NCBI RefSeq assembly: GCF_041381155.1
Contig: NC_091140.1
Location: forward strand, 27,816,952 to 27,880,951
Source: Argopecten irradians
Taxonomy: Eukaryota; Mollusca; Bivalvia; Pectinida; Pectinidae
Length of the DNA stretch: 64,000 nt
Reading direction: 5' to 3'
The translations under genes and the position numbers were made by a program. A model generated the notes under the pieces. It saw nothing but the letters and a program-made list of their open reading frames with translations. It ran no database searches and had not been told where the DNA came from. Below are positions 4,406 through 63,438 of the stretch, piece after piece; within the stretch, counting starts at the first letter, position 1; the number at the start of each line of letters is the position of its first letter.

Positions 4406-7400
4406 ATGGCGACCGGTGGAGTATCGAAGTACCTGTTCGTAGCCGCTGTAGATTTTGGAACTACGTATTCTGGCTATGCCTTTGCTGCTACAGCAGATTT
4501 GAAGAAAACAAATGATAATGGTCCTGTTCCAATTAAAACTAATGTGTGGAATGCGGGAGGAAGGGAGCTGTTGTCCAGTAAGGCTCCAACTGCACTGCTG
4601 CTAAAACCAGATAAAACATTTCAATCTTTCGGATACAAAGCTGAAAATGATTATTCTTATCTGGTTAGTGAGGAAGAAGACGACGAAGGCCGCTCGTACA
4701 AGGATTACTACTACTTCCACAGATTTAAGATGGTTCTTCACGACAATGCGGTAAATACATGTATGATTTTAGTGCATGCTATGCTTAGTTTATTTGTTTA
4801 GCATGTTGTGTAATACTGAACTCAAAAGTTGACCAGCAATGTATAGTCTGATCGCGTGGATGAAGCAGAAAAATGCATTCTTCCATATTTTTGTTTCTTA
4901 TTTCAATGTATTGCTATTTAGTATCATTTGATGTTTGACATCCCACATATCTTGAAAGCACGTTAAAGCTGCAGTTTCACTGTATGTATAGACCTATCAG
5001 TCACATACAGTATGTGGGTATACAAAAGTTATTAGCGCGTTATTAGCTGTACAAAGACTTAACTCTTAAGGTTCATGATCCCGGTGCCTACTAATTGATA
5101 TAGGTATTCGTTGGAAGTACATGTAGTATGCCCTTTTTAAATTCAATTGATAAGACGTACATGTTATGTCTTTTCGTTTGGATCATGACTTTTTCAAGTT
5201 CATTAAAAACTCATTGTATTTACCAAAGCATGGATCATTATTATCAAGTGAATATGTAAAGTAGGTTGAGTTAATAGCATGACTCTTCATGAATTGTTAA
5301 ATAGCCGTAAAATCCGTAAAAAGAAAACGAATTTCAAAAGGAAGAGGTATGGTCCACTATACGTGATACCACGCTGAATATGACGAACTGGTTGTATCTG
5401 CTGTCTGGGGTAATTTGTCCCGTCACAGCTCTGCAACAATTGATTCAGCACGAATAAACTGGGGATTACTGCCTCCCCTTTTAATGTGTTAAGTGACATT
5501 ATCTAAACCAAACACGAACTATGTGTAATGTTGTATATATGAACTACAGGGGCGACTGAAAGCCGTCTAAAACTACAATTTTTTTATAGTGAATGAGAAC
5601 TGTGAATATGTTCTTAAGATTGAGGAGAATGACAATTAAATTACGTTTGGCATGGAATCATGCAAGTCAAAATATATAAATGCTACCAGTACTTGTGTAA
5701 ATAGACTGTACAGTTTGTGTTTTTAATGCTATGCGCAACCGGAAGTGAAGTGACAGTTGAAACTGTAACCAGTAATTAAATGACCACGATGGATCTTCAC
5801 AAGCTAGAACTAGCTTACACCGATCCGACCACAGCGATTCAGCGATGGTCCATTTCCGCCTGCCACGACCTGGGCGCGCACAGCTCTTGCTCGAGATAAA
5901 AATACACCACAGGTGAAATGCCATGTGACATATTATGGGTCTCTCTTGTCCAAAATAGATTGCTACTAGTAATCCATATCATTGTTCGCATAATAGACGG
6001 CAATTTTTTCATCAATAGTGCATGTAATCGCTGCGAAATTTCTTCCCTACATGTACCAGGGTTGACGTGACACAATGTATACAATTCATACGAGATACAT
6101 TGTAGGAAAAAGTCTTTCGTTTATTAGGTTTAAAGTTTAAAGATTTTTTTATCATTTTTTATCATCATTATTTTCTATTTTGATATTTATTTGATATCAC
6201 ATCAATTCGAAATATCTGTTTGATATGACAAATAAAAGGATTTTTGTTGCTTGTCAAGATAAAAATAACAGTTAGTCCTGGTAGTGATTCGAACTCTGAA
6301 CCTTCTGAAAGTTTCAATCATCTGAGCTACACTGACTTGATACTTCGAATCGTTCTGGCATTAATTTTTGATGCTATTGAAATAAACTATTTAAGCAACC
6401 ACGTTTTTTTTCATTTTTTTTTCGGCATGAGCGCGTAGGAGGACCACTTTTTGAGAATAGAATTAAAGTTGTATTTTACTACACATGAAAGGATTTATAA
6501 ATTGTACGTCCTTGACAGGAGCTATAGTAAAAGTTTGTCCTCTGTTGCGCTGTATGTAAAAATGGATTTTAAGACGGGAAACCCCCAAGTAAAAGTCATA
6601 AATCCCATGATGATACCTCTTTGTCATCATTTAATGAATTATCACCTGTAATTAACAAACTGCTTTTTCCAATATAAGATCATTTATATATCAAACATGA
6701 GGTATGTGTATTCAGAAACTTGATATTTTGGTATTTATTTTTGGATTTTAAAAAACGGTCACCTTTAGGTCGAAATGGACCGATATGGGCAATACCTCTT
6801 TGATAGAAAAAGGACAAATATTAAAACTACGAACGGGATATGCGTTATAATTTGATTAAGATAACTTAATATTGAAAATACATATATAGTACTTGCTACA
6901 AAGAGTTGGAAATTCTCTTTTAAGCATGTTATGGAGATTAACTTTTGAATGCCACTGCTAATATATATCTATGGAAATAAAACGCACATGTCTACCGCAT
7001 TGATTTGAAATACAGTACCTTGGCACCGAAAGATGCTAGTAAAGTTGATTTTGTTGGTAGCTAATCAATACTAAAACACTCGGAATCTAAGCTATTTACA
7101 AATTATTATGTAAATTAATCGGAGAAAACGAAGTAATGTGTTACATGGCCGTCGTTGATTGATTTTCTTCAAAACGCCTGTATTAAAAATGCAATCTTCT
7201 CGATCTGATTAAAATACACATCCTTATAGCAACTCCGTTCAGTAGAGGATCTGACAGCATTCCATAATTATAAGGGTCCATGTTCAGATCAACTTTATAC
7301 TAACTCTACTTCCGATCAAATGCATTTCTACACCATGCTACATTAATTGAAAACGGCATTTCGTCCCGGTATACATTTACATTTAGCTTTGTTGTGTTCT

Positions 7401-10400
7401 TAAGGTGAGATGACTACGTACATAAAAATAATTCTGACTGATTTTTCAAACTGTTTGTGTCTCCAAATTTATTGTACATGTAAGTTGAACCGACTCATTT
7501 GTTGTGATATAAATATAAAGCTATCCTTCGTAGAATTTCCGACTCTTACGTTATCTTCGAATTCGCTATTTCAGCGACAGTACTGTTCATATATGTTTTT
7601 AATTTGCAGAACCTTCGAAAGACAACGTTAGTATCGGATGTTACTGGAAAGAAATCTCTTCCTGCCATTGAAGTGTTTGCCCATGCCATTAGGTTCCTTA
7701 CAGGAGATTTGTTTGATACAATAAACAACCAAATCGGCGGGGAGCTTAAGAAAGCAGATATTCAGTATGTTCTGACCGTACCAGCGATCTGGGATGATAA
7801 AGCCAAGCAGTTCATGCGAGAGGCAGCCAGACTAGTAAGTAATCTCAATTTCGTTTGTTGTTAAAACTGTATCCTTTTACATAAATTTGATATTGAAATT
7901 TACATGTATTTTCATCATACTTATCAAGATTTCATCAACATTTGAACTTATACAAAACCAACCTACATCAATCAGTCATAAATTTAAATTCACAACATAG
8001 TTTTTAGGGCGAGCGTACTCTCGCCCTATTGTTTTCCTTGTCGGGTGTGGAGTCTGTGTACATTCGCTATGCGCAGATTCCATTTGCGCACGTGATACCA
8101 GAAGTCACTGTCTTATACGTATACCGTTTAATAGATTTCGCCGTGATTTAGTGACACCAACGTTTCAAAAATAAGAGATATCTATCAGCGATGTTTTTCT
8201 GTAAATTAAAGGTAGGTTTCGCCCAATTAAAGATAAAGACTACTAAATTGAAATTTATCCTGTACATAGATATAATCTTCAGATCATTTTAATACATAAA
8301 GCGAACAGTATGGGTGGTCAGTTGCCTAGCTTGACCAGGAAAATACTCCTCTAAATATAGAGCGAAGTCAAGCTTTACATAGAACATGACGTATTTTTTT
8401 TTCCAAAACGAGGCCGCATCAACAAATGGAAGCGTGCAACAAAAAGTCAGATAGCAGTGATCGAGTGTCTTGCCACAGCATGTTCAGTAAAAAAATAACA
8501 ACAACAAAGTGCGATGGACTGTTTATACATATCATATCATCTAAAACACTTATGTTACTTACATACGCTCGCTAGCTTAGTACATCAAACATATATGTAT
8601 CTAGTAAATGTGTCGCTGTATGTGCCCTGGCATATGTGTTGAAATTTAACTCACCACGTGCAACAGAATCCGGGCAAGTTCCGCTTGAGACGTGCCTTCT
8701 GTTTCTTCTATTGCTACCTGCCATCTCTGAATTTCATTCCCTAGAGATATCATAGGATGCTACCGATTCCATTCTAATTTCCTCGTCTTTGTTGCCGATT
8801 CAGATACATTTTTTTCCTAGCACGCTTTCGTTCAGCCATTTTGTTTACTTTTAGTGCGTTACAATGCGCATTCGCGAAACTTCGACAACACAATCTATCG
8901 CAGCTTCATTTGCATACTATTCTGTCTGACTGACAATCGTAATAAATCAAGGATTCCCTTCAATTTTGTATCCAAGACACATTTATTCAATCTCATACGC
9001 ATAAAGAAATTAAATTGGGGTATTTTTAATACGTTTATTCATCTTTTCTTCAGTTTTTCGGATTTTACAAAAAATATTTATTTGGTTGGGCGAAACCTAC
9101 CTTTAACAAGTGACACCAATGGACATTTAACAGTGCTAAACACTTTCATTTTGTGTAAACTTCAAGCGGCGTATCATACAAACTCTTGCATCGGTCACGA
9201 TATTCTAATCATCCAATCGACTTTGGAAACATCCGGAACAATACAATGCGAATCAGGTTTATGTAGTCAATAAAAGAAAGTGACGAAAGGGATAACTTTT
9301 AGTACCGGCCAAAGACATTTACAGTGTTACTCAGCAGATTATATTTAATTTCACATCATCCTAGGTCCTAGGTATGCAAATACGTTGTGCTATCGCTTAC
9401 TAACCCCAGTGACCATAGACCATATTTGCTACGGTTCTAATAAATATTTATAAAATCACACAGCCACAGCCTTGCGTAAGAGAAACAGAATAAAAAAACA
9501 TCATACAATATCAGTCCGGGTGCCAGAACTCTAGATCTAATGTAACATGAAAGTTATTCAAGCATGACACAGGAAGTCACCACGTGCACAGAGACTGGAC
9601 AGTGCTGTATACGTAGCGGACGACTATTTTGAACAGCGAAACAAGTCTATCGTATCAATATCAATTAGATAACAAATAAACTTCTATGTAACAAATAAAC
9701 CAATTAACAAAGTCCATAGTAATTTCACATTTATAGTTCTGATGACATAATTTTAAGGAAATTATTTATTACAATACATCAAGGACATAAACCATATCCC
9801 AAGGATAATGAGCGATAGTGCTGCGTACGTACACCTGTTGCCGAAGATGATATATGCTTGTGAATATATATGCATATCTGCGGGTTATTTATAAATAAGG
9901 TGTTACAGTTTTGTACCTGCAAAATATCTCACCGCAGAAGCCTTATACATGTAGATTAAGGAAGTAGTTGGCGAGCACTCAATGTCTAACAGACATATTT
10001 CTAGTTTTAACAAGATTTATAACATTCAATTAAGGTTATGCCATGTTGACGAAGATAAATGCATCGTACTACTTCTAAAGCCTACACTTTCAATACAGGG
10101 TGGGATAGAAGGAGAACAACTCATGATTGCCCTGGAGCCAGAGGCTGCATCAATTCAATGCCAGCATATCCCCATGGGAAAGGATGGAGGGGAAGCCACA
10201 TATATGGTGGTAGATTTGGGAGGTAAGCTAATAAAAATGCTATTTCAAAATGTAATCATGACAATTGGCCCTGTAGTCAGGGTAGAATGATGACATTCAA
10301 CTTAATTGTATACGATGAGGGGAGAGCTCTGTAAAACGTATTAAATACCTCAAAAGAGCACCGCAAAACCAATCAAAACATATTTTAAACCTGATTTTCA

Positions 10401-12413
10401 TATCCAAAGATCTACGTTATTGTTACTAAAAATCATCAATTGCTTTTGTTATTCTGTGATATTTCAAATTCTATTTGGTACACTTGATTTCAATTTGCAT
10501 TGAGAATTCCTTTCGATATACGGTGCAAGTAGATTTTATATACATACTGTACTTCTGAATCAATATATCTGATCATTACAAACCAGGTGAGCGATACAGG
10601 CCCTCTGGGCCTCTTGTTTTTGTTCGAAAGATCATTTACTGTTGTATTTCTTGTAAATTTCACCATCACAAAGTCTCATAAAACATACAATGTGTGGATA
10701 CGAATGTTTATATATGATGGTTCAGATCCATGAAAACACAAATATACTATTGACATAGCGGTAAATGTCGCATTGTCGTATTACACGTTTTGAATGAACC
10801 ACCATAGTCAACGCAATGTTTCAAACTTTCGTGTAATACCGGAAAACCGAGTTGCATCACGTGCTCAATATCGGCAATACCAGTACAGATTGGAAAAGAT
10901 CGGAAAAGTTCGGATACTTCAGAGCTATTTTAAACGAGTACACGTTTAAATGATTTTTTAACTTTTGGAGCATCTTTAATTAAAAATGCTTCCAATGCTG
11001 CAACTTTATAAAAAGTTGTAAAAGTAGAAAGTTTAAACCTCGGAAAGACGGAGAAAAATGTGTATTACACTTAAGGAGTTTTCACTATGACAAAAAGAGC
11101 GAAAGTGATAGACCATACAACTTTAAATTTTTTTCACCGTTGACAAATGGTATTTTTCCTCTAACAATAATAGTAGCTTACTTATTTTATACCTTTTCCA
11201 CCATCGAAAAATTTGGGAGTTTAATAGTATATTCTATATACAGAAAGTTAATTCAAATGCTTAAAATGTATTGGGGCATTGAATGTTTTTTCTAATACTT
11301 TTTGCAGGAGGCACAGCCGATATCACCGTCCATCAGAGAAATTGTCTCGGGGGCAGAAGTGAACTCAAAGAACTACATCAAGCAACAGGTGGTGCCTATG
11401 GAGGGAAATCTGTTGACGACGCATTTGAACATTTTCTTTGTGACATTGTTGGCAAAACAAATCTGGATAAACTGAAAGATGAAAGTATGGAAGATTACAT
11501 TGATATTTGCCGCCAATTTGAGGGCAAAAAGCGTAGCTTTGCCGCAGCCAGTAAGTCAAACGAGGAAGAGCGTGTAGAAGGTACAAAAACAAAAAAGGAA
11601 AAAAAAGAATCATTTTCTGTTCCTGTCGTACTGGAGAGCTTAGTTAAAACAGATAAAAGTATTGAGGGAATGGACAATGCCGTCAAACAAAGCCCCTACG
11701 CCCAGCAGATATCGTTTGCCCGCCACAAATTACAGATTTCTGAAGCAGCGTTCACTAAACTCTTTCAACCGGCCATCGATGGTATTATAAAGCATATGGA
11801 GAACATTTTCTACAACAGCAAATTTCAACATGTTGATACTATTGTGATGGTTGGTGGATTTTCTGAGTGTAAACTTGTACAAGACTACATACAAAACAGA
11901 TTCACCCTAAAAAGAATCATTATCCCTGACGACCCCGGTCTTGTTGTGTTAAAGGGTGCTGTACTCTTTGGTTACAATCCTGGAACAATAGGATGTAGGG
12001 TGGCTCGCCACACGTACGGTGTGCAAAGCTGGCCTACTTACAACGACTACTTCAAAAGAGAGAAGAGAGTGGTGGTTGAAGGAGTTGCACGATGCAAAGA
12101 TGTTTTTTTGATATATGTCGAAAAAGGCCAACAGCTAACTCCAGGGCATTCAGAATCACAGGTTTTCCGAGCACTGAAATCCAATGAGACCAGTCTCCAG
12201 TGTGCTGTCTACATCTCGGACGACGTAAATCCAAAGTACGTGGATGATCCAGGTTGTCAACTACTTGGTACCTTGGTTGTGCCACTAGATCCGTCTGTGC
12301 CTGGACCAGCCGAAATCGAAGAGACTTTGGTATTTGGAGAAACGGAGCTGTTTGTTAAAGCCAAGAATATAAAAACTGGCGAGGAGTACCGGGCACAGTT
12401 TGATATTCTTTAG
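4406..12413 (+). CDS. HSPA12A-like: HSPA12A/B-like protein (distant Hsp70 family), gene 1
   Basis: Four coding exons join in frame: 4406-4750, 7610-7834, 10099-10222 and 11308-12413, giving 1800 nt and 599 residues. All introns are GT-AG (donors GTAAAT, GTAAGT, GTAAGC; acceptors all CAG). Exons 1 and 2 end in phase 0 and exon 3 in phase 1. The actin-like ATPase fold is visible: phosphate-1 loop DFGTTYSGYA (residues 16-25), phosphate-2 loop VDLGGGTADIT (228-238, split by intron 3) and the adenosine-site motif VGGFSE (413-418). EPEAA (203-207) and LTVPAIWDDKAKQFM in exon 2 are typical of HSPA12 members. The start is the first ATG of the frame and is matched by gene 2 (MATGG). Length is slightly below vertebrate HSPA12A/B (about 675-690). 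Exon 4 has a Lys-rich insert (KTKKEKKE) missing from gene 2. HSPA12 proteins are probably cytosolic ATPases without a classical Hsp70 substrate domain, and the family is expanded in bivalves, where members are linked to stress and immune responses. The exact role here is unknown. Confidence 0.92.
6265..6345 (-). repeat. tRNA-derived SINE remnant in gene 1 intron 1
   Basis: On the minus strand a tRNA-like segment has an A box (GTGTAGCTCAGATGATTGAA) and a B box (GAGTTCGAATCAC) about 25 nt apart. No matching acceptor stem closes it, so it is read as a SINE head or tRNA pseudogene, not a functional tRNA. Confidence 0.45.
8006..8032. repeat. Hairpin terminus of an interspersed repeat
   Basis: GGGCGAGCGTACTCTCGCCC is a 7-bp stem with a 6-nt loop, followed by TATTG. 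Similar GC-rich hairpins (15709-15726; 44640s; 45003-45037) mark ends of other repeats in the window. Which element it belongs to cannot be told. Confidence 0.4.
8206..9107. mobile_element. Candidate TIR element in gene 1 intron 2
   Basis: TTAAAGGTAGGTTTCGCCCA at the left is exactly inverted at the right (ending CGAAACCTACCTTTAA), giving 21-bp perfect arms about 900 bp apart. The ends AAGGTAGG...CCTACCTT are flanked by TA on both sides, as in Tc1/mariner-type insertions. The interior holds a 139-codon open frame (8854-9273) that I do not recognise and that does not look like a transposase, so the element is probably non-autonomous. Confidence 0.45.
10584..10620. repeat. Hairpin-ended interspersed repeat terminus
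   Basis: The motif CAGGTGAGCGATACAGG followed by CCCTCTGGGCCTCTTGTT forms a short GGCCC/GGGCC hairpin. An almost identical copy is at 45003-45037 and a decayed one at 13754-13786. I recognise it as a repeat end common in bivalve DNA. It lies in intron 3 of gene 1. Confidence 0.6.
11139..11280. repeat. Partial copy of the 52.7-kb MITE in gene 1 intron 3
   Basis: From CACCGTTGACAAATGGTATT onward this stretch aligns with 52743-52900 (shared ACAAATGGTATTTTT, TTACTTA, CCACCAT.GAAAA, GTTAA..CAAATG-like blocks). A detached GGAGCATCTTTAA end of the same family is nearby at about 10966-10980, so the copy is broken or rearranged. Confidence 0.45.
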
Positions 12414-36700: not shown

Positions 36701-39569
36701 AACTTGACAATGCGCCATGCGACAGTTTGTTGCATAACGCATTGTCGTATTTTCGCATAGCATATTGTCGCACTATTGCATGACCCACTGTCGCATGACA
36801 CATTGTCGTATTCATTGACGTTTCGAAATAAGCACGTCATATACACTGCTATCACACTAATTATATACTTCTTTCTCTCGCAAATGGTAACCACGTACGG
36901 TGGCCGTTTTTAGAAACTATATGTTTTAGTTTTCTCAGACCCGAGTGACGACAGAGAGGGCAACATGGTAAGCATCCTTAGATGTCGACTCATGGTTAAC
37001 CTCCATGAATGGTAAACTGGAGTCATGAAAAAACTACCAACTGCATTTAGGTAGGTATACTTTGATTTACGTATTTGTTAAGAAAAACTATTCTAAATAA
37101 TGATGTTTATCAATTTTATCGACTTTACGCCATGCGATAACTCGACAATGCGCCATGTGACAATGTTTTTGTCGCATAGCGCATTGTCGGACTGTTGCAT
37201 GGCATAATGTTGCACTGTCGCATGGCGCATTGTCGAATTGATTGATATCTCGAGATAAGCACATCATATATACTGCTATTACATTAATTATACACTTCTT
37301 TCTTTCACAAATGGTAACCACGTGAGGTGGCCGTTTTTGGAGACCATATGTTTCAGTTTTCCCGAGACCCGAGTGACGACAGGAATGGCAACATGGTAAG
37401 CATTCTTGGAGACGACGGATGGTTCACCTCCATGAATCGTCACAAACTACAAACTGCATTTAGGTAAGTATAAAAACGTTAACAAACGTATATCCAGAAT
37501 ACATGCTCAGTTTAATTGTAAAGACACTGTTCTAAATAATGAATTTGTATCAATTTGTGCGACTATACGTCATGCGAAAACTCGACAATGCGCCATGCGA
37601 CAGTGTGTTTGTTGCTTAGCGCATTGACGTATTGTCGCACGACATTTTGCTGCACTATCGCATGGCATATTGACGCACTGTCGCATGACCCATTGTCGTA
37701 TTCATTGACCATATCAATATAAACTACTATCACACTAATAATATACTTCTTTCTCTCGCAAATAGTTACCACGTACGGTTGCCGTTTTAGAGACTATATG
37801 TTTCAGTTTTCTGAGACCCGAGTGACGACAGGAAGGGCAACATGGTAAGCATCCTTAGATGTCGACTCATGGTTAACCTCCATGAATAGTAAATTGGAGT
37901 CGTGAAAAACTACCAACTGCATTTAGGTAGGTATACTTTGATTTACGTATTTGTTAAGAAACTATTCTAAATAATGAAAGTTTATCAATTTTATCGACTT
38001 TACGCCATGCGATAACTCGACAATGCGCCATGTGACAATGTTTTTGTCGCATAGCGCATTGTCGGACTGTTGCATGGCATATTGTTGCACTGTCGCATGG
38101 CGCATTGTCGTATTGATTGATGTCTCGAAACAAGAACATCATATATACTCCTTTCACATTAATTATACACTTCTTTCTTTCACAAATGGTAACCACGTGA
38201 GGTGGCCGTTTTTGGAAACCATGTTTCAGTTTTCCGAGACCCGAGTGACGACAGGAATGTAACATGGTAAGCATCCTTGGATGACGACGGATGGTTCTCC
38301 TTCACGAATGGTAAAAAAGAGTCGTGAAAAAACAACCAACTGCATATAGGTAAGTATACTTTAACTTACATAATTGTAAAGAAATTATTCTAAATAATGA
38401 ATGTTTATCATTTTGTGCAACTATACGTCATGCGACATCTCGACATGCGCCATGCGAAAGTGTGTTTGTTGCATAGCGCATTGTCGTACTTGTCAAATGA
38501 CATATTGTCGCACAATCGCATGGCATATTGGCGCACTGTTGCATGAACCATTGTCGTATTCATTGACGTTTCGAAATAAGCACGTGATATATACTGCTAT
38601 CACGCTAATTATATACTTCTTTCTCTCGCAAATGGTAACAACGAGTCGTGGCCATTGTTGGAGACTATGTTTCAGTTTTCCGAGCCCCGAGTGACGACAG
38701 GAAGGGCAACATGGTAAACATCCTTTAATGATGACGGATGGTTCGCCTCCATGAATGGTAAAAAAAGAGTCGTGAAAAACTACCAACTGCATATAGGTAA
38801 GTATACTTTAACTTACGTTTTTGTAAACAAACTATTCTAAATGATGAATTTTTATCAATTTGGCATGCGACAACTCGACAATGCGCCATGTGACAATGTG
38901 TTTGTCGCATAGCGCATTGTCGGACTGTTGCATGGCATAATGTCGCACTGTCGCATGGCGCATTGTAGTATTGATTGATGTCTCGAAATAAGCACATCAT
39001 ACATACTGCTATCACACTAATTATATACTGCTTTCTCTCAAAATGGTAACGACGGGAGGTGGCCGTACCATATGTTTTAGTTTTCCGAGACCCGAGTGAC
39101 GACAGGAAAGGCAACATGGTAAGCATCCTTAGATGACGACGGATGGTTCACCTCCATGAATGGTAAAATGAAATCGTCACGTACTACAAAGTGCATTTAG
39201 GTAAGTATAAAAACGTGACAAACATATATCCAGAATATCTGCTCATTAATTGTAAAGACACTGTTATAAATATTGAATTTGTCTCACTGTCACATGACAT
39301 ATTGGCGCACTGTCGTATGACTCATTGTCGTATTCATTGACGTTTCGAAATAAGCACATCATATACACTGCTATCACACTAATTATATACTTCTTTCTCT
39401 CGCAAATGGTAACCACGTACGGTGGCTGTTTTTAGAGACTATATGTTTCAGTTTCTGAGACCCGAGTGACGACAGGAAGGGCAACATGGTAAGCACACTT
39501 TGATGTGGACTCATGGTTAACCTCCATGAATGGTAAACTGGAGTCGTGAAAAACTACCAACTGCATTTA
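30750..39569. repeat. Complex satellite: about 20 units of ~370-480 bp
   Basis: The core block TTTCAG-TTTTCCGAGACCCGAGTGAC-GACAGGAAGGGCAACATG-GTAAGCATCCTT recurs about 20 times, at 31387, 31853, 31938, 32417, 33620, 34130, 35200, 35670, 36130, 36508, 36946, 37371, 37820, 38245, 38690, 39092 and 39462, plus decayed copies. Each is followed by a GGTTCACCTCCATGAATGG block, AACTACCAACTGCATTTAG, GTAAGTATAC, a variable block of CATGCGACA and TGTCGCATG motifs, an AT-rich block and CGCAAATGGTAACCACG. The 3' half (from about 35.6 kb) is homogeneous. The 32.9-34.9-kb part is full of single-base insertions. Confidence 0.85.
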
Positions 39570-39654: not shown

Positions 39655-40315
39655 GTAGATAAAAATGGTTATGGACCAGTGGAGGGCTGACATAACCATC
39701 GCGAAGTTATGATTGGATACGTAATAAACACTTGGAATATAACATATGAGGAGTACATAAATAAAAATGGTTATGGGCCAGTGGAGGGCTGACATAACCA
39801 TCGCGAAGTTATGATTGGATACGTAATAAACACTTGGAATATAACATATGAGGAGTACATAAATAAAAATGGTTATGGACCAGTGGAGGGCTGACATAAC
39901 CATCGCGAAGTTATGATTGGATACGTAATAAACACATGGAATATAACATATGATGATTATATAAATAAAAATGGTTATGGACCAGTGGAGGGCTGACATA
40001 ACCATCGCGAAGTTATGATTGGATACGTAATAAACACATGGAATATAACATATGAGGAGTACATAAATAAAAATGGTTATGGACCAGTGGAGGGCTGACA
40101 TAACCATCGCGAAGTTATGATTGGATACGTAATAAACACATGGAATATAACATATGAGGAGTACATAAATAAAAATGGTTATGGACCAGTGGAGGGCTGA
40201 CATAACCATCGCAAAGTTATGATTGGATACGTAATAAACACTTGGAATATAAAATATGATGAGTATATAAATAAAAATGGTTTTGGACCAGTGGAGGGCT
40301 GACATAACCATACAT
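39655..40315. repeat. 102-bp tandem array (about 6.5 copies)
   Basis: The unit runs from AAAAATGGTTATGGACCAGT through TCGCGAAGTTATGATTGG to CATATGAGGAGTACATAAAT. Copy starts lie at 39661, 39763, 39865, 39967, 40069, 40171 and 40273. ATGGTTATG and CATAACCAT in each unit form a 9-bp inverted repeat. Because 102 is 34 codons, a minus-strand frame (39517-40419) stays open with a 34-residue repeat, MVMSALHWSITIFIYV... A real protein is unproven. Confidence 0.9.
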
Positions 40316-49968: not shown

Positions 49969-51129
49969 GTTCCCATGTACCCCTCTGCCAGTTTTTCGAA
50001 ACATGGTTTTTTATGACCAGTATGATGTCTAGTTTCATTTTATGCTTGTTGCCATTGACAACTAATGTGTCATGGGGGTCATATGGCGGCCATCTTGGAT
50101 TTCGGGTATCAAAAATGGCCAAAATGACACATTCGCAAACATGCGCATAGATAGAGAGCCAGACAACATTCAGAGCAAATAAACACATTTTGTGATATAA
50201 TTGAAACATGCTGAATACGATTAAATCGTAATAATGATGTTACGTCTTCTCATTTTGGTAAAATTTGTGTATTCTATGTTGCGACGATGTATCAAGGCAT
50301 TGCACGTCGTCTCCAGCTTCTCAATACAGCTTGGAAAATAAAGATAACAAGTACATCATTTTTGTCTGTTTTACTTAATCACACGATAAAAAACGTAACA
50401 GTGACATGATAAAAAATGAACTTTCTGTTGATGACAAGAATAAAAAAATATTTGTCTTTGAAATGAAAAAAAAAATATAATTGTAAAACTTGTCAACACT
50501 AGAAAACAGTCAATAATTGGGACATGAAAACAGTTTCAATTAGTGGTATCACTTGTATTTTGCTTAAATTCGCGCTAATACAGGTCCAGCATTCTGTCGA
50601 AGCATTGTTTTATTTCTTCATGCATTTTTTGCATGTTCTCTTTGAAGCTTTCATACTGACTCTGCATACAGTCCAGTACATCGGAGGATTTCCTTTTGTT
50701 ACATTCTTCTTTTTAGATTTATTTTCTGCTTCAGAGTGTCCACTTGTGCTAGGCTGGGGTTCATCTGCATCAGTGTCTAAGGTAGATGATGCCCTTGTAC
50801 TAGCTTTGTTGCCATATAAGTTGTCAAAGGCTGTTTTATGTCTAAAGTAGCGACTTTCAGAGCCGGAAGGGGCGTCGATTATTTCTTTCCATTTCTTTTC
50901 CAATGCGGCCTACATTGTACTTATTTAAAAACCTGTGGTGGGGTGATAATGCAATTTATTGTTTTCAATTCATCTGTAATTTTTGTCCAAACCTTTTAAT
51001 GATTTCGATTTTTGATAAAATCATCAGGCATTCCATGCCTTAGAAAAACTAATTTGTCTTCTTCGTTGTCTCTCCATACATGAAAAGAATTGAGACTGCT
51101 TTGTCTGGTAGTGCCACTACTTTTTCCAG

Positions 51130-52110
51130 TGGATAAGTCATTGCTGCTTTGTCTGGTAGTGTCGATACTTTGTTAGTCCAGTGGATAAGTCATTGCTGCT
51201 TTGTCTGGTAGTGTCGCTACTTTGTCCAGTGGTTGAGTCATTGCTGCTTTGTCTGGTAGTGTCGCTACTTTGTCCAGTGGTTGAGTCATTGCTGCTTTGT
51301 CTGGTAGTGTCGCTACTTTGTCCAGTGGTTGAGTCATTGCTGCTTTGTCTGGTAGTGTCGCTACTTTGTCCAGTGGTTGAGTCATTGCTGCTTTGTCTGG
51401 TAGTGTCGCTACTTTGTCCAGTGGTTGAGTCATTGCTGCTTTGTCTGGTAGTGTCGCTACTTTGTCCAGTGGTTGAGTCATTGCTGCTTTGTCTGGTTGT
51501 GTCGCTACTTTGTCCAGTGGTTGAGCCATTGCTACTTTGTCTGGTAGTGTCGCTACTTTGTCCAGTGGTTGAGTCATTGCTGCTTTGTCTGGTAGTGTCG
51601 CTACTTTGTCCAGTGGTTGAGTCATTGCTGCTTTGTCTGGTAGTGTCGCTACTTTGTCCAGTGGTTGAGTCATTGCTGCTTTGTCTGGTAGTGTCGCTAC
51701 TTTGTCCAGTGGTTGAGTCATTGCTACTTTGTCTGGTAGTGTCGCTACTTTGTCCAGTGGTTGAGTCATTGCTACTTTGTCTGGTAGTGTCGCTACTTTG
51801 TCCAGTGGTTGAGCCATTGCTACTTTGTCTGGTAGTGTCGCTACTTTGTCCAGTGGTTGAGCCATTGCTGCTTTGTCTGGTAGTGTCGCTACTTTGTCCA
51901 GTGGTTGAGTCATTGCTGCTTTGTCTGGTAGTGTCGCTACTTTGTCCAGTGGTTGAGTCATTGCTGCTTTGTCTGGTTGTGTCGATACTTTGTCCAGTGG
52001 TTGAGTCATTCCGGCTTTGTCTGGTAGTGTCGCTACTTTGTCCAGTGGTTGAGCCATTGCTACTTTGTCTGGTAGTGTCGCTACTTTGTCCAGTGGTTGA
52101 GTCATGGCTG
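51130..52110. repeat. 48-bp coding minisatellite (about 20 copies)
   Basis: The unit, on +, is CATTGCTGCTTTGTCTGGTA + GTGTCGCTACTTTGTCCAGT + GGTTGAGT, with few variants (GCTACT for GCTGCT, GAGCC for GAGTC, GTTGTG for GTAGTG). 48 bp is 16 codons, so all repeat frames stay open. The minus frame gives SSNDSTTGQSSDTTRQ and is the one continuous with the flanking coding exons. The low divergence suggests recent homogenisation. Confidence 0.95.
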
Positions 52111-52280
52111 CTAGTGCTTTGTATGGTGGTTGATAAGTCAGCCTCAGGTGTGTAAAGTCTGACACTTGAGGATGTTATCAAGCTTTCAATAAGACTCAAA
52201 TTCACAGCTGAATCTGTTAGTAACAAATAAAAAGACCAAGTCAGTAGAAGAAATAATCAAAATTACTGTGTAAAAAATAC

Positions 52281-55591: not shown

Positions 55592-58500
55592 ATGGCAACA
55601 GGCGGACTATCAAAGTACTTATTCGTAGCAGCCATCGATATTGGAACTACGTATTCTGGGTACGCATTTGCATCTACAAAAGAACTGAAGAAAGTAAAGG
55701 ACTATGGCCCTACTCCAATTGAAACCATTGTGTGGAACTCAGGGTCAAGGTCATTGTTATCCAGTAAAGCTCCGACTGCTTTGTTGCTGAAACCAGATAA
55801 AACATTCCAATCCTTTGGATACATGGCTGAAAATGACTATTCTGATCTGGTTAGTGAGGAAGAAGACGACGAAGGACACTCGTACAAGGATTACTACTAC
55901 TTCCACAGATTTAAAATGGATCTTCATAACAATCAGGTAATTCTTGTGAATGTATTTGCAGTTATGCGTCCAAAACTGTTTGCTCGATGATTGGCTGATA
56001 AAACGTTTTTTATAGTAGGCACTGACTCTATAAGGTCGGCTGGGTTACCGACAGATTAAATAACGAATATACATGTATAGGCGTTAAAGTATACAAAACG
56101 AATTGTAAAACGTTGATTTTGATTATATATAATGTGTCATAATAATTAACACTCGAGTTTATATCTTGAAAAAAACATTTAACACCACCAGTTAGTGATC
56201 TATACAGTACTCAGCTGGGAAAAGGCAAGTGTGCGATTTTCAACTGGGACAGGAGAGTTATAGTATGATATCCATGATACCACTAGATTAATGAGATTTG
56301 AGAGACCAGGGTCGGCATCATTAAGAAATAAAATCCTCAGACAAAATTAAGAATTTACTCAACTTAGTAAATTACTCAAATGTTCCACAATAAAAATAAC
56401 TTCAGAAATTTCTCAGCTGAGTAAATTAAAAGGATTATTTTGAAGAATCTATAAGTGGCTGTGAAACTCTTCTGTGTTGTTGTAAACAAAACATTGTCTT
56501 CTGCAAGCACCCGTCAGCTGTGCACTCCGGTTGGGGTGTATTTTGCGGCATGTCAGCACGAGACGCAACACGAATATATACCACAGCCTCCTAAAACAGT
56601 GCAGACAGGAGATGCCGTCTAATAGCATTTTACAAGACGTTTTCCTAACCAGCAAACTAACGGAAAAATTTCAGTATATACATATTTACAAGGCTCTCAA
56701 AGAAGTTTTTCTGAAATCTGGTATATATATATATATATATACTTATGTATATCCATTATGCTACTGATACCTATTAGAATCATTTAATTGATAATATCAT
56801 TTACGTGGATACAGTGATGGACATTTAATAATTGTTAGGTCATGCAGTCAGGTTGTTACGTAACAGTCTTTTAACTCAATGAATTTATATTTCAGAGCGT
56901 TAGAGAGACATCTAAGATGAAAGATGTCACTGGTAAAGATCTTCCTACCATTGACGTGTTTAGCCATTCAATCAGGTTCCTTAAAGACCAATTATATGAT
57001 ACAATATGTACTAGAAAGGAAATAGTGCGTGGGGAGTTGAACGAAGGGGACATTCAATATGTACTGACTGTACCGGCTGTATGGGATGAAAAGGCTAAAG
57101 AGTTCATGCAGAAGGCGGCAAGAAATGTTTGTAATACTCTCTGTTTAATTTTCCTCTTTTGTTTCATTTTTTTAAAGCTGACAATGTAAGTTAAGCAAGT
57201 ATTGAAATGAGATTTAAAAGAAGTATTTTTAAAATTATTTATCAGACAATATTTAACTGTTGCGGTAATTGTGGTTTTTTTTCTACCAGCATTCTGATGC
57301 GCATGTGTTTATGACTGTCCATTACAGTTAGGATATTTATTTTGAGGGGTTTATCCCGCGTTTGCATGTTACAATTTATCAGTCCTTGAGGTATATGTTT
57401 CGCCGTTAAAAACAAATATGTTAAAGTAACCAAACAACATAACGCTACAATCCTAAATGGTACATTAATATGAAAATATGAATGAATTTTTATATTGGTA
57501 TAGGCCCATACCTTACTAAAACTATTATTTTTTGTTCCTATGTTTGAGAATCACTTTTTACTTTGTATAGCATGAAAATTGAAAAAAATAAACAAATTTT
57601 AAACTTTTAACATTAAAGTATCAACTTAAAATCAATCTTCATATTGAATATAGGCCAATATTGCAGAAGAACATCTGATGATTATCACTGAACCGGAAGC
57701 GGCGTCATTGTACTGCCAGCATATTGACAAAGACATCAGCCTATTGAATACATACCTGATGGTAGACCTCGGAGGTAGGTAGTACTAACTGTAGAACACA
57801 TACCTGATGGTAGACCTCGAAGGTAGGTAGTACTAACTGTAGAACACATACCTGATGGTAGACCTCGGAGGTAGGTAGTACAAACTGTAGAACACATACC
57901 TGATGGTAGACTTCGGAGGTAGGAAGTACAAAATGTAGAACACATACCTGATGGTAGAGCTCGGAGGTAGGTAGTACAAACTGTAGAACACATACCTGAT
58001 GGTAGACCTCGGAGGTAGGGAGTAAAAACTGTAGAACATATACCTGATGATAGACCTCAGAGGTAGGTAATACAAACTGTAGAACACATACCTGATGGTA
58101 GACCTCGGAGGTAGGAAGTACTAACTGTAGAACATATACCTGATGGTAGACCTTAGAGGTAGGTAATACCAACTGTAGAACACATACCTGATGGTAAACC
58201 TCGGAGTCACATGTAGGAAGTACTAACTGTAGAACACATACCTGATGGTAGACTTCGGAGTCACATGTAGGAAGTACAAACTGTAGAACACATACCTGAT
58301 GGTAGACCTCGGAGTCACATGTAGGTAGTACTAACTGTAGAACACATACCTGATGGTAGACCTCGGAGGTAGGTAGTACTAACTGTAGAACACATACCTG
58401 ATGGTAGACCTCGGAGGTAGGTAGTACTAACTGTAGAACACATACCTGATGGTAGACCTCGGAGGTAGGTAGTACTAACTGTAGAACACATACCTGATGG

Positions 58501-61500
58501 TAGACCTCGGAGGTAGGTAGTACTAACTGTAGAACACATACCTGATGGTAGACCTCGAAGGTAGGAAGTACTAACTGTAGAACACATACCTGATGGTAGA
58601 CCTCGGAGGTAGGTAGTACTAACTGTAGAACACATACCTGATGGTAGACTTCGGAGGTAGGTAGTACTAACTGTAGAACACATACCTGATGGTAGACTTC
58701 GGAGGTAGGTAGTACAAAATGTAGAACACATACCTGATGGTAGAGCTCGGAGGTAGGTAGTACAAACTGTAGAACACATACCTGATGGTAGACCTCGGAG
58801 GTAGGAAGTACAAAATGTAGAACACATACCTGATGGTAGAGCTCGGAGGTAGGTAGTACAAACTGTAGAACACATACCTGATGGTAGACCTCGGAGGTAG
58901 GGAGTAAAAACTGTAGAACATATACCTGATGATAGACCTCAGAGGTAGGTAATACAAACTGTAGAACACATACCTGATGGTAAACCTCGGAGTCACATGT
59001 AGGAAGTACTAACTGTAGAACACATACCTGATGGTAGACTTCGGAGTCACATGTAGGAAGTACTAACTGTAGAACACATACCTGATGGTAGACCTCGGAG
59101 TCACATGTAGGAAGTACTAACTGTAGAACACATACCTGATGGTAGACCTCGGAGGTAGGAAGTACTAACTGTAGAACACATACCTGATGGTAGACCTCGG
59201 AGGTAGGAAGTACTAACTGTAGAACACATACCTGATGGTAGACCTCGGAGGTAGGAAGTACTAACTGTAGAACACATATCTGATGGTATACCTCGGAGGT
59301 AGGGAGTACTAACTGTAGAACACATACTTAATGGTAGACCTCGAAGGTAGGAAGTACTAACTGTATAACACATACCAGATGGTATACCTCGGAGGTAGGA
59401 AGTACTAACTGTAGAACACATACCTGATGGTAGACTTCGGAGGTAGGAAGTACTAACTGTAGAACACATACCTGATTGTAGACTTCGAAGGTAGGAAGTA
59501 CTAACTGTAGAACACATACCAGATGGTATACCTCGGAGGAAGGAAGTACAAACTGTAGAACACATACCTGATGGTAGACCTCGGAGGTAGGTAGTACTAA
59601 CTGTAGAACACATACCTGATGGTAGACCTCGGAGGAAGGAAGTACAAACTGTAGAACACATACCTGATGGTAGACCTCGGAGGTAGGTAGTACTAACTGT
59701 AGAACACATACCTGATGGTAGACTTCGGAGGTAGGAAGTACTAACTGTAGAACACATACCAGATGGTATACCTCGGAGGAAGGAAGTACAAACTGTAGAA
59801 CACATACCTGATGGTAGACCTCGGAAATAGGGAATACAAACTATAGAACACATACCTGATGGTAGACTTCGGAGGTAGGAAGTACTAACTGTAGAACACA
59901 TACCAGATGGTATACCTCGGAGGAAGGAAGAACAAACTGTAGAACACATACGTGATGGTAGACCTCGGAAATAGGGTATACAAACTGTATAACACATACC
60001 TGATGATAGACCTCAGAGGTAGGTAGTACAAACTATAGAACACATACCTGATGGTAGACATCGGAGGTAGGAAGTACTAACTGTAGAACACATACCTGAT
60101 GGTAGACCTCGGAGGTAGGAAGTACTAACTGTAGAACACATACCTGAATGTAGACCTCGGAGGTAGGAAGTACTAACTGTAGAACACATACCTGATGGTA
60201 TACCTTGGAGGTAGGAAGTACTAACTGTAGAACACATACCTGATGGTAGACCTCGGAGGTAGGTAGTACAAACTGTAGAACACATACCTGATGGTAGACC
60301 TCGGAGTCACATGTAGGGAGTACAAACTGTAGAACATATACCTGATGGTAGACTTCGGAGGTAGGAAATGCTAACTGTAGAACACATACCTAATGGTATA
60401 CCTCGGAAGTAGGAAGTACTAACTGTAGAACACATGCCTGACGGTATACCTCTGAGGTAGGAAGTACTAACTGTAGAACATATACCTCATGGTAGACTTC
60501 GGAGGTAGGAAGTACAAACTGTAGAACACATACCAGATGGTATACCTCGGAGGAAGGAAGTACTAACTGTAGAACACATACCTAATGGTAGACTTCGGAG
60601 GTAGGAAGTACAAACTGTAGAACACATACCTGATGGTATACCTCGGAGGTAGGAAGTACTAACTGTAGAACACATACCTGATGGTATACCTCGGAGGTAG
60701 GAAGTACTAACTGTAGAACACATACCTGATGATAGACCTCGGAGGTAGGTAGTACAAACTGTAGAACACATACCTGATGGTAAACCTCGGAGTCACATTT
60801 CGGGAGTACAAACTGTAGAACATATACCTGATGGTAGACTTCGGAGGTAGGAAGTACTAACTGTAGAACACATACCTGATGGTAGAGCTCGGAGGTAGGA
60901 AGTAAAAACTGTAGAACACGTACCTGATGGTAGACCTCGGAGGTAGGTAGTACTAACTGTAGAACCATAGCTGATGGAAGACTTCGGAGGTAGGAAGTAC
61001 AAACTGTAGAACACATACCTGATTGTATACCTCGGAGGTAGGGAGTACTAACTGTAGAACACATACCTGATGGTAGACTTCGGAGGAAGGAAGTACAAAC
61101 TGTATAACACTTACCTGATGATAGACCTCGGAGGTAGGTATTACTAACTGTAGAACACATACCTGTTGGTAGACCTCGGAGGTAGGAAGTACTAACTGTA
61201 GAACACATACCTGATGGTAGACCTCGGAGGTAGGAAGTACTAACTGTAGAACACATACCTGATGGTAGACCTCGGAGGTAGGTAGTACTAACTGTAGAAA
61301 ACATACCTAATGGTAGACCTCGGAGGTAGGAAGTGCTAACTGTAGAACACATACCTGATGGTAGACCTCGTAGGTAGGTAGTACAAACTGTAGAACACAT
61401 ACCTGATGATAGACCTCGGAGGTAGGTAGTACTAACTGTAGAACACATACCTGATGGTAGACTTCGGAGGTAGGTAGTACACAGTGTAGAACACATACCT

Positions 61501-63438
61501 GATGGTAGACCTCGGAGGTAGGTAGTACTAACTGTAGAACACATACCTGATGGTAGACCTCGGAGGTAGGTAGTACACAGTGTAGAACACATACCTGATG
61601 GTAGACCTCGGAGGTAGGTAGTACTAACTGTAGAACACGTACCTGATGGTAGACCTCGGAGGTAGGTGGAACACAGTGTAGAACATGTATGTTGATTGAT
61701 GATACAACTGAACATTATACTTTTTTTTTTCGGGCATGTTCTATATAGGAAACAACCAACTAAAGGATAAAATACCTTCGAAATTGTTCCCGTGTCTACA
61801 AGATTGCGCCCAGGATAGAATTTTGATCTGGCCACTGATTGGCTACTTTATTAATTAGTATGAAATCTAAAAGTATTATTCTGAGATAACAATGATATAG
61901 AATTGGAAATCCAGGTTGAAATTCAGGTTCAAAATATCAAATTGGATTATAAATAGGCAAAACACTATGATTTCATGATGTTTTACTGCAAACTGCACCT
62001 TATTTCAAAATGGTTACCCTGGGTGGAGTTTGAGCTGAAGGACCCAAGCTTTTTTTAGTGTTATATGACACAATAGCTAACTGATAGTCAATTGTTTTAA
62101 TAATACATTACAAAACTTTAACAAACTTTAACACTGTGGTCTATGTAAAATTATTTAGTTGATTGCTATCTATGATCAATTATAATTCCATTTTCCATTT
62201 TACTGTGTATTTTTTTCTATTAAGACTGAACTAGGCATATCTTTCAGTTAGAAATACATTTTAAGATAGAGAGACTTAATTAATTGGTTGCTGATTTCTT
62301 CTCACCTTATGCGATTCCAATCTGTATCAGAAAAAAATGTGGCTAGTTGAGGCAAAACGTCGAGTAGTTCCAATGATTTCATGAGCATTGGAAAAATATT
62401 GAAGAACCGGCAGACACTTGGTTTGACTGTTGACCGGCGAGGATAAGCTGCGACAAGTTTAAGATTGCGCACGACGTTGTATGATACAATGATACAAATA
62501 TGTTTCTGTACTATTCAGGTATCAAAACAGTTGTTTCTTGCCTAATCACTCATATATTGTCAGTTTATGACATATGGACACATATAAAAACAAAAAATAT
62601 AATCAAACTTTTGAAAACGTAATATGTCTTATATCTAAATATGATAGCCCACACACTGTTTACCTGTTTAATCTACATTGTGTATCAGCATTTTCTGTAA
62701 CATTTGTCAAAGTCAGAAAAAAATATCAGATCATTAAGTGATTCCGTAGTTATCCGTATCACCATCCTATCAATACCACCTATATCCTCCAAATGAAATA
62801 CATTTATTTTCTCTGTAGGAGTTTTTGACGTAACCATAATTAAGAAAAAGTCTTCCGAAAAACAGAGAGAAGTCATGGAGATTCTTCCTGGTACATCTGG
62901 AGGGAATTATGTAGACCATGCATTTGGACAATTTCTTTCCGACATTGTTGGAACACGAAATCTAGATACATTTAAAGACCATTATATGGAAGATAACATT
63001 GACATTTGCCGTCAGTTCGAAGGGAAAAAGCGTTGCTTCGCCGCAGGAAGTAAATCAAACGAGAAAATGGTATATATATCTGTTCCTCGTGCTCTAGAAA
63101 GCTTAGTTAAAGCAGACAGAAGTCTGAAAGGGATGGACATTGCCATCAAACGAAGCCCCTACGCCCAACAGATATCATATGTTCGCCACAAATTACATAT
63201 TCCTGAATCAACGTTCAGTGGATTTTTTCAGCCAACCATTGATTGCATCATTACACTCACGGAGAAAATGTTCTTCGGTGATAACGTCATTGACGCCGTA
63301 GTATTAGTTGGTGGGTTTGCCGAGAACACGCATGTGCAAACTTCCTTTAAAGAGAAATTTTCGCGGTCAAGAGTATTCATTCCCGAGGAAGGCACACTAG
63401 CTGTGTTAAAGGGGGCCTCCGCTGTCATACAGATATAA
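55592..63438 (+). CDS. HSPA12A-like: HSPA12A/B-like protein, gene 2 (short C-terminus, altered phosphate-2 loop)
   Basis: Coding exons 55592-55936, 56896-57126, 57654-57774 and 62819-63438 join in frame to 1317 nt, 438 residues. Exon 1 is the same length as in gene 1 and all phases agree. Introns are GT-AG (donors GTAATT, GTTTGT, GTAGGT). Phosphate-1 loop DIGTTYSGYA is at 16-25; EPEAA at 205-209; the adenosine motif VGGFAE at 396-401. Identity to gene 1 is high (exon 1 shares SSKAPTALLLKPDKTFQSFG). Two oddities: the phosphate-2 loop reads VDLGGVFDVT (229-238), about two residues short of the usual DLGGGT; and the protein stops with KGASAVIQI where gene 1 continues for about 145 residues. An AATAAA follows at 63573. 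ATPase activity may be changed or lost. A further exon beyond the window, or an assembly error, could also explain the short end. Intron 3 (5044 bp) is largely the exon-derived minisatellite. Confidence 0.82.
56721..56741. repeat. (TA)n microsatellite in gene 2 intron 1
   Basis: About ten TA dinucleotides in a row. Confidence 0.85.
57751..61685. repeat. 48-bp minisatellite made of gene 2's own exon 3 donor region (about 80 copies)
   Basis: The first unit is the real end of exon 3 (ACATACCTGATGGTAGACCT then CGGAG) plus the start of intron 3 (GTAGGTAGTACTAACTGTAG then AAC). It repeats every 48 bp for about 3.9 kb. Most units keep the donor CGGAG|GTAGG, a TACTAAC branch-point-like motif (or TACAAAC) and TGTAG. 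At least eight copies carry a 6-bp insert (GGAG-TCACAT-GTAGG) near 58207, 58261, 58315, 58993, 59047, 59101, 60307 and 60795. A block of units at 57930-58090 recurs at 58812-58970, offset 882 bp = 18 units plus three inserts, which shows higher-order duplication. Minus-strand frames stay open (MCSTVSTSYLRGLPSG, 16 residues) only because 48 is a multiple of three. Confidence 0.95.

Follow-up and report, generated by a model that had tools for sequence, protein, structure and literature searches.

What does a gene do with an intron that carries dozens of near copies of its own splice donor? This question is raised by a stretch of 64,000 nucleotides from the scallop Argopecten irradians (contig NC_091140.1 of assembly GCF_041381155.1, positions 27,816,952 to 27,880,951 of the forward strand; hereafter the window, position 1 being its first letter), in which intron 3 of an HSPA12-like gene, gene 2 of the window, holds a tandem array of 48-bp units. 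An earlier note, made from the letters alone, had described the unit as a repeated donor, branch point and acceptor, and had proposed that the array might tune splicing, titrate U1/U2 or drive unproductive splicing. Our analysis favors a plainer answer. The array is in all likelihood a by-product, passive and of little consequence for the gene. We consider it, with a probability of about 0.7, to be a minisatellite that was seeded by one exon-intron duplication, is tolerated in a fast-evolving, shortened paralogue, and is removed together with intron 3. Its origin from gene 2's own exon 3/intron 3 boundary is well supported by the sequence.

Origin of the array at an exon end

Tandem Repeats Finder confirmed the array noted at 57751-61685, reporting a repeat at 57746-61666 with a period of 48, 80.7 copies, 90% matches and a score of 6024, far above chance. 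A head-to-tail repeat with a unit of 10-100 bp and many copies is a minisatellite, and the array is one by its period, copy number and matches. When the array was cut at AACACATACCTG, we obtained 81 head-to-tail units (57747-61681), 57 of them distinct and the commonest present in 10 copies. The step from one unit to the next was 48 bp in 71 cases, 54 bp in eight and 47 bp in one, and all eight 54-bp steps carry a TCACAT insert between GGAG and GTAGG.

The first unit identifies the founder. It encodes the exon end ...NTYLMVDLGG and carries the donor, as expected if the unit derives from the exon 3/intron 3 boundary. The array does not, however, begin exactly at the donor, as had been stated, since its real start lies 25-28 nt inside the exon. 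The unit is not foreign either, and on this point the earlier claim stands: an exact search of the 845.8-Mb assembly with a 33-mer of the unit gave 22 matches, every one inside the array, and the count in the window is likewise 22. A foreign or dispersed repeat was excluded on this basis within the scope of exact matching, which does not extend to diverged copies. A 27-mer of the unit had no match among the IMG/VR contigs. We also considered a repeated coding exon and rejected it, each of the three sense frames having 93-160 stops. NTYLMVDLG is still translated in 30 of the 81 units, and changes among units fall 47, 20 and 21 times on codon positions 1, 2 and 3; with most at position 1, no coding constraint is seen.

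The donor and intron 3 are older than the array. For this comparison we used the 12 loci besides gene 2 (gene 1 of the window included) that have exon 4 together with upstream sequence; further exon-4 matches without a locus were left out. In nine of them we could locate where exon 3 ends, and all nine break in the same codon, with AG/GT in eight and GCG/GT in one (the slash marks the splice site). Because every readable paralogue holds the intron at this codon, the donor and the intron predate the array. Intron 3 measures 222 nt in the shortest of these nine and about 4.8 kb in the longest, and an exon-end array is present in none. For the other three loci (L029, L030 and L032), in which exon 3 could not be delimited at its end, no tandem repeat was reported upstream of exon 4. 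One of the nine, a neighboring HSPA12-like paralogue (L041:3463-4813), has a long intron 3 with a different tandem repeat, of 171/341 bp, whose start is not at the exon.

The array would have been seeded when a single tandem duplication straddled the junction of exon 3 and intron 3 in an HSPA12-like gene of A. irradians that is itself a duplicate. Most simply, the 48 bp concerned would have begun with ACATACC on the exon side and ended with GTAGAAC on the intron side. The exon reads AATACATACC at its flank, and the sequence after unit 81 reads GTAGAACATG; given these flanks, the GTAGAAC/ACATACC junction would result from one duplication that took AAC off the intron side. The same course would explain why 79 of the 81 units have AAC where the exon has AAT; column 3 is C in these 79, T in unit 1 alone and A in one unit. 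Later growth probably proceeded by unequal exchange or slippage of multi-unit blocks. Such blocks are observed: units 3-7 and 21-25 show two differences, and units 10-15 and 26-31 show five.

Segmental duplications with splice signals have been described as a source of new introns. PMC4974935 recounts that introns were gained where a piece of exon containing AGGT was duplicated in tandem (Rogers, 1989; ATP2A1, Hellsten, 2011) and, in fission yeast, through 24-bp repeats (Zhu and Niu, 2013). Unlike in AGGT duplication, the scallop donor and intron existed beforehand, and the copies lengthened an intron rather than created one. The array thereby offers a case of an intron that would have lengthened from its own exon end with the message unaltered.

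Splice signals of the copies and their possible use

In order to compare the donors, duplex energies were calculated with the letters of the U1 5' end and no modified bases. The founder donor GAG/GTAGGTAG gave -12.0 kcal/mol, a value reached by 14 of 3505 GT sites outside the array. Of the decoys, the first lies 48 nt away and the next 96 nt, and they gave -11.9 and -12.0 kcal/mol. The branch motif was said to be present as many perfect TACTAAC copies; this form is indeed found in 46 of the 81 units, the remainder having TACAAAC (22) or other forms (13). Elsewhere on the + strand of the window TACTAAC occurs at six places. The proposed number of about 80 AG sites fits the TGTAG end, kept in 76 of the 81 units, but not AG in general, as units 2-81 contain 387.

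The unit does not, in contrast to what had been proposed, look like a special assembly of donor, branch point and acceptor. AGs lie 6, 25, 34 and 38 nt downstream of the branch A, and the distance from branch A to acceptor is given as 10-60 nt in PMC10156609. The TGTAG of the same unit, being only 6 nt from the branch A and thus outside this range, is too close to pair with TACTAAC. Conservation of the donor and of the branch motif does not exceed that of the unit's other positions. The eight donor columns hold 18 changes, a total not exceeded by 13 of the 48 sliding windows; the seven branch columns hold 49, and 39 of 48 windows have no more. This test is rough because the units share descent.

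We regard the donor copies as probably incidental. The founder donor, the first after the exon, would stay in use, and the whole array would leave with intron 3. This fits the protein named by NCBI: a four-exon model that joins donor 57774 to acceptor 62819, leaving out the array, gave 438 amino acids identical to P0001, the heat shock 70 kDa protein 12A-like of A. irradians. Some copies may leak into truncated, decaying mRNA, or may be silently spliced out again, each being preceded by an AG. An array of this kind presents a natural experiment on donor choice, with dozens of near-identical donors in one intron whose strength is almost constant and in which mainly position varies.

A minisatellite with splice donors in its repeats has a precedent in human IFI6, where the unit is said to be 12 nt in about 26 copies, reportedly including the natural donor of the adjoining exon, and where alternative donors reportedly add residues in frame. 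The scallop array is a variant of this known but rarely described kind (Turri, 1995), as its unit 1 similarly spans the donor of exon 3. It differs in having 81 units of 48 bp and in that use of a decoy gives stops. For IFI6, moreover, two downstream repeat units were reported to act as donors, yielding three mRNA species (PMC4526556), whereas the scallop copies are putative donors. The suggestion that no minisatellite built from donor, branch point and acceptor had been described agrees with our literature search, which found no array combining donor, branch motif and AG (most subscription papers lay outside its coverage).

Several points weigh against a passive array of this origin. The decoys are not weak, and their full silence is not assured. 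They are not about 80 in number as first counted, but copies as good as the founder do exist: AGGTAGG is kept in 64 of the 81 units and the founder's U1 duplex energy is reached by 28, the founder included in both counts. The mean number of changes is lower in the donor columns than elsewhere (2.25 vs 4.65), though the sliding windows show this not to be unusual. The T of unit 1 may instead have arisen later, as AAT and AAC are synonymous codons for Asn. The ancestral state of the intron start is read tentatively, unit 81 being a plausible candidate for it. Finally, the NCBI protein P0001 may be a prediction, and the same protein would result if intron 3 were removed in several steps.

The decoys could instead reduce or control gene output by unproductive splicing, through truncation at DLGGR and nonsense-mediated decay. 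We consider this unlikely, although the reading frame and the strength of the two nearest decoys speak for it. As had been foreseen, use of later donors would truncate the protein after DLGG: all 63 later AG/GTAGG donors lead to a stop directly after DLGGR and to a product of 234 amino acids, while the other 17 of the 80 later units lack the motif tested. Inclusion of 28-nt microexons, 1, 2, 3, 4 or 6 in a row, likewise brought an early end in the three commonest outcomes for each number; in the commonest outcomes, one microexon gave 244 residues and two or more gave 245. The NCBI-named protein is full length, however, and no truncated gene 2 product was present among 83 matches to the 234-residue query (proteins of about 129-410 amino acids), the best being 59% identical and from Mizuhopecten. 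The latter is weak evidence, because such mRNA may decay and would leave few proteins.

A decoy-extended exon also contains a GT...AG block that could still be spliced out, which leads to a second possibility, and one we find quite doubtful. The CGGAG/GTAGG copies would serve as zero-length exons, the 5-kb intron being removed in whole-unit steps and decoy-extended exons trimmed back to the normal mRNA. The AG of this motif lies 34 nt from the branch A, a better geometry than that of TGTAG. Of the 63 AG/GTAGG sites after the founder, 38 lie 18-45 nt downstream of a TACTAAC branch A (37 of them at 34 nt), and the number rises to 54 if TAC[ATC]AAC is allowed. With putative branch points, the motif thus has both AG/GT and a branch point 10-60 nt upstream, as a recursive site should. 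Splicing from the founder to a copy and then from the copy to exon 4 leaves the computed mRNA unchanged. A recursive splice site is, however, expected to have a polypyrimidine tract, and here the array sites fall short: the pyrimidine share before the AG/GTAGG sites is 0.45-0.59 (mean 0.50), whereas six authentic acceptors from the two genes have 0.50-0.73. The longest pyrimidine run before any AG of the array is 5, and authentic acceptors, with 5-8, are somewhat richer only. In addition, another AG, at 25 nt from the branch A, would be encountered earlier, and the motifs show no extra conservation. In human, recursive sites at distal exon ends are known in which AG/GT can be acceptor and donor; lariat reads served to map them, after repeats had been filtered out (PMC10156609). 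The scallop sites, as putative ones, share with these the AG/GT of an exon end. If stepwise removal did take place, the intron would mend its own splicing errors, since a used copy leaves a whole-unit GT...AG block that a second splice removes exactly. The array would then be a ladder of recursive sites by descent, and this would explain how the gene survives 63 decoys that match the founder or fall short of it by at most about 3 kcal/mol.

It is improbable that U1 small nuclear ribonucleoprotein, bound along the array, aids definition of exon 3 or protects the long intron against premature polyadenylation. U1 that binds downstream of the natural donor can, as described for PAH exon 11, improve definition of the exon (PMC5933811), and the array contains neither AATAAA nor ATTAAA in 3908 nt. 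The founder, however, is already strong, the remaining 1136 nt of the intron also lack both signals, and the donor columns show no sign of selection. Most improbable of all is that the array belongs to a coding sequence on the minus strand: the strand is open over 528 codons (57741-59327) and one antisense frame has only 5 stops in the array, but where the period is divisible by 3 a frame can stay open by chance, and none of 7994 scored protein candidates reached E <= 0.001.

One further feature of the unit was observed. Within 57747-57790 it carries ACATACCT, which presumably resembles the U1 5' end and is nearly complementary to the unit's own donor AGGTAGGT, so that donors may pair with neighboring units. 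The energy of this pairing was -6.7 kcal/mol. Donors of the array were predicted to be less accessible than others: accessibility had a median of 0.0005 for them and was 0.00003 for the founder, against 0.0015-0.06 for the five other donors of the two genes. Masking of the donor by ACATACCT was nevertheless discarded and left as a curiosity, as five consensus units folded no better than shuffled ones (98 of 200 were as stable or more).

The host gene and its relatives

Gene 2 belongs to a large family. Its protein matches the Pfam domain HSP70 (PF00012) with 23.9 bits against a cut-off of 20.6, and its relatives carry HSPA12A/B names in many bivalves, which places it in the HSPA12 family. Gene 1 of the window (4406-12413, 599 amino acids; P0002 of A. 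irradians) is its top-scoring relative after P0001. HSPA12-like pieces gave at least 97 matches among those listed in the genome (96 of 365 candidates scored), and several adjoin the window.

Gene 2 does not have the intact DLGGGT and the C-terminal part of an HSPA12 protein. DLGGGT is known as the phosphate motif; gene 2 reads DLGGVFDVT where seven aligned relatives have D[LV]GGGTxDIT, one residue being missing at the exon 3/4 junction (62819-62842). After the common LKGA, 5 residues follow in gene 2 and 149 in gene 1, and a search for the missing C-terminal part in the next 10.6 kb gave a best match of E 2.6. P0004 of Mizuhopecten is likewise short, with 436 amino acids.

Gene 2 is constrained yet fast-evolving, as indicated by change counts against outgroups together with the ratio of nonsynonymous to synonymous substitution rates (dN/dS). 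Relative to the outgroup P0003, it has 112 changes of its own and gene 1 has 17; with four other outgroups the numbers were 75-100 and 17-24, respectively. Pairwise dN/dS was about 0.25-0.30 by two methods. We infer that a fast-evolving, shortened paralogue could tolerate the array more readily.

Features of the locus and other repeats

The features of gene 2 and its array are collected in Table 1.

Table 1. Exons of gene 2 and parts of its intron 3 array (positions in the window)
Feature	Positions	Strand	Remarks
Exon 1, gene 2	55592..55936	+	Gene model; joined protein P0001
Exon 2, gene 2	56896..57126	+	Gene model; joined protein P0001
Exon 3, gene 2	57654..57774	+	Ends NTYLMVDLGG; founder donor GAG/GTAGGTAG at 57774/57775
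Unit 1	57747..57794	+	28 nt of exon 3 end and 20 nt of intron 3 start; sole unit with AAT, not AAC, at its start
Units 2-80	57795..61633	+	Within intron 3; Tandem Repeats Finder, segmentation, column counts
Unit 81, diverged, GTAGGTGGAACACAGTGTAG	61634..61681	+	Possibly the ancestral intron start
Intron 3 remainder outside array	61682..62818	+	Acceptor TTTTCTCTGTAG/GAG at 62818/62819
Exon 4, gene 2	62819..63438	+	Ends VIQI*

The window contains other tandem repeats. A second 48-bp array is located at 51096-52112, with 96% matches over 21.1 copies. Either strand has long open frames there, and the minus strand reads as a Ser/Thr/Gln-rich repeat of 16 residues. Kinship with the array of gene 2 was rejected, as a local score of 12 on either strand showed no likeness. 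At 36786-39209 there is a 427-bp array with 5.6 copies and 76% matches, and a 102-bp array (39659-40311; 6.4 copies, 97% matches) lies inside a minus-strand open frame of 300 codons.

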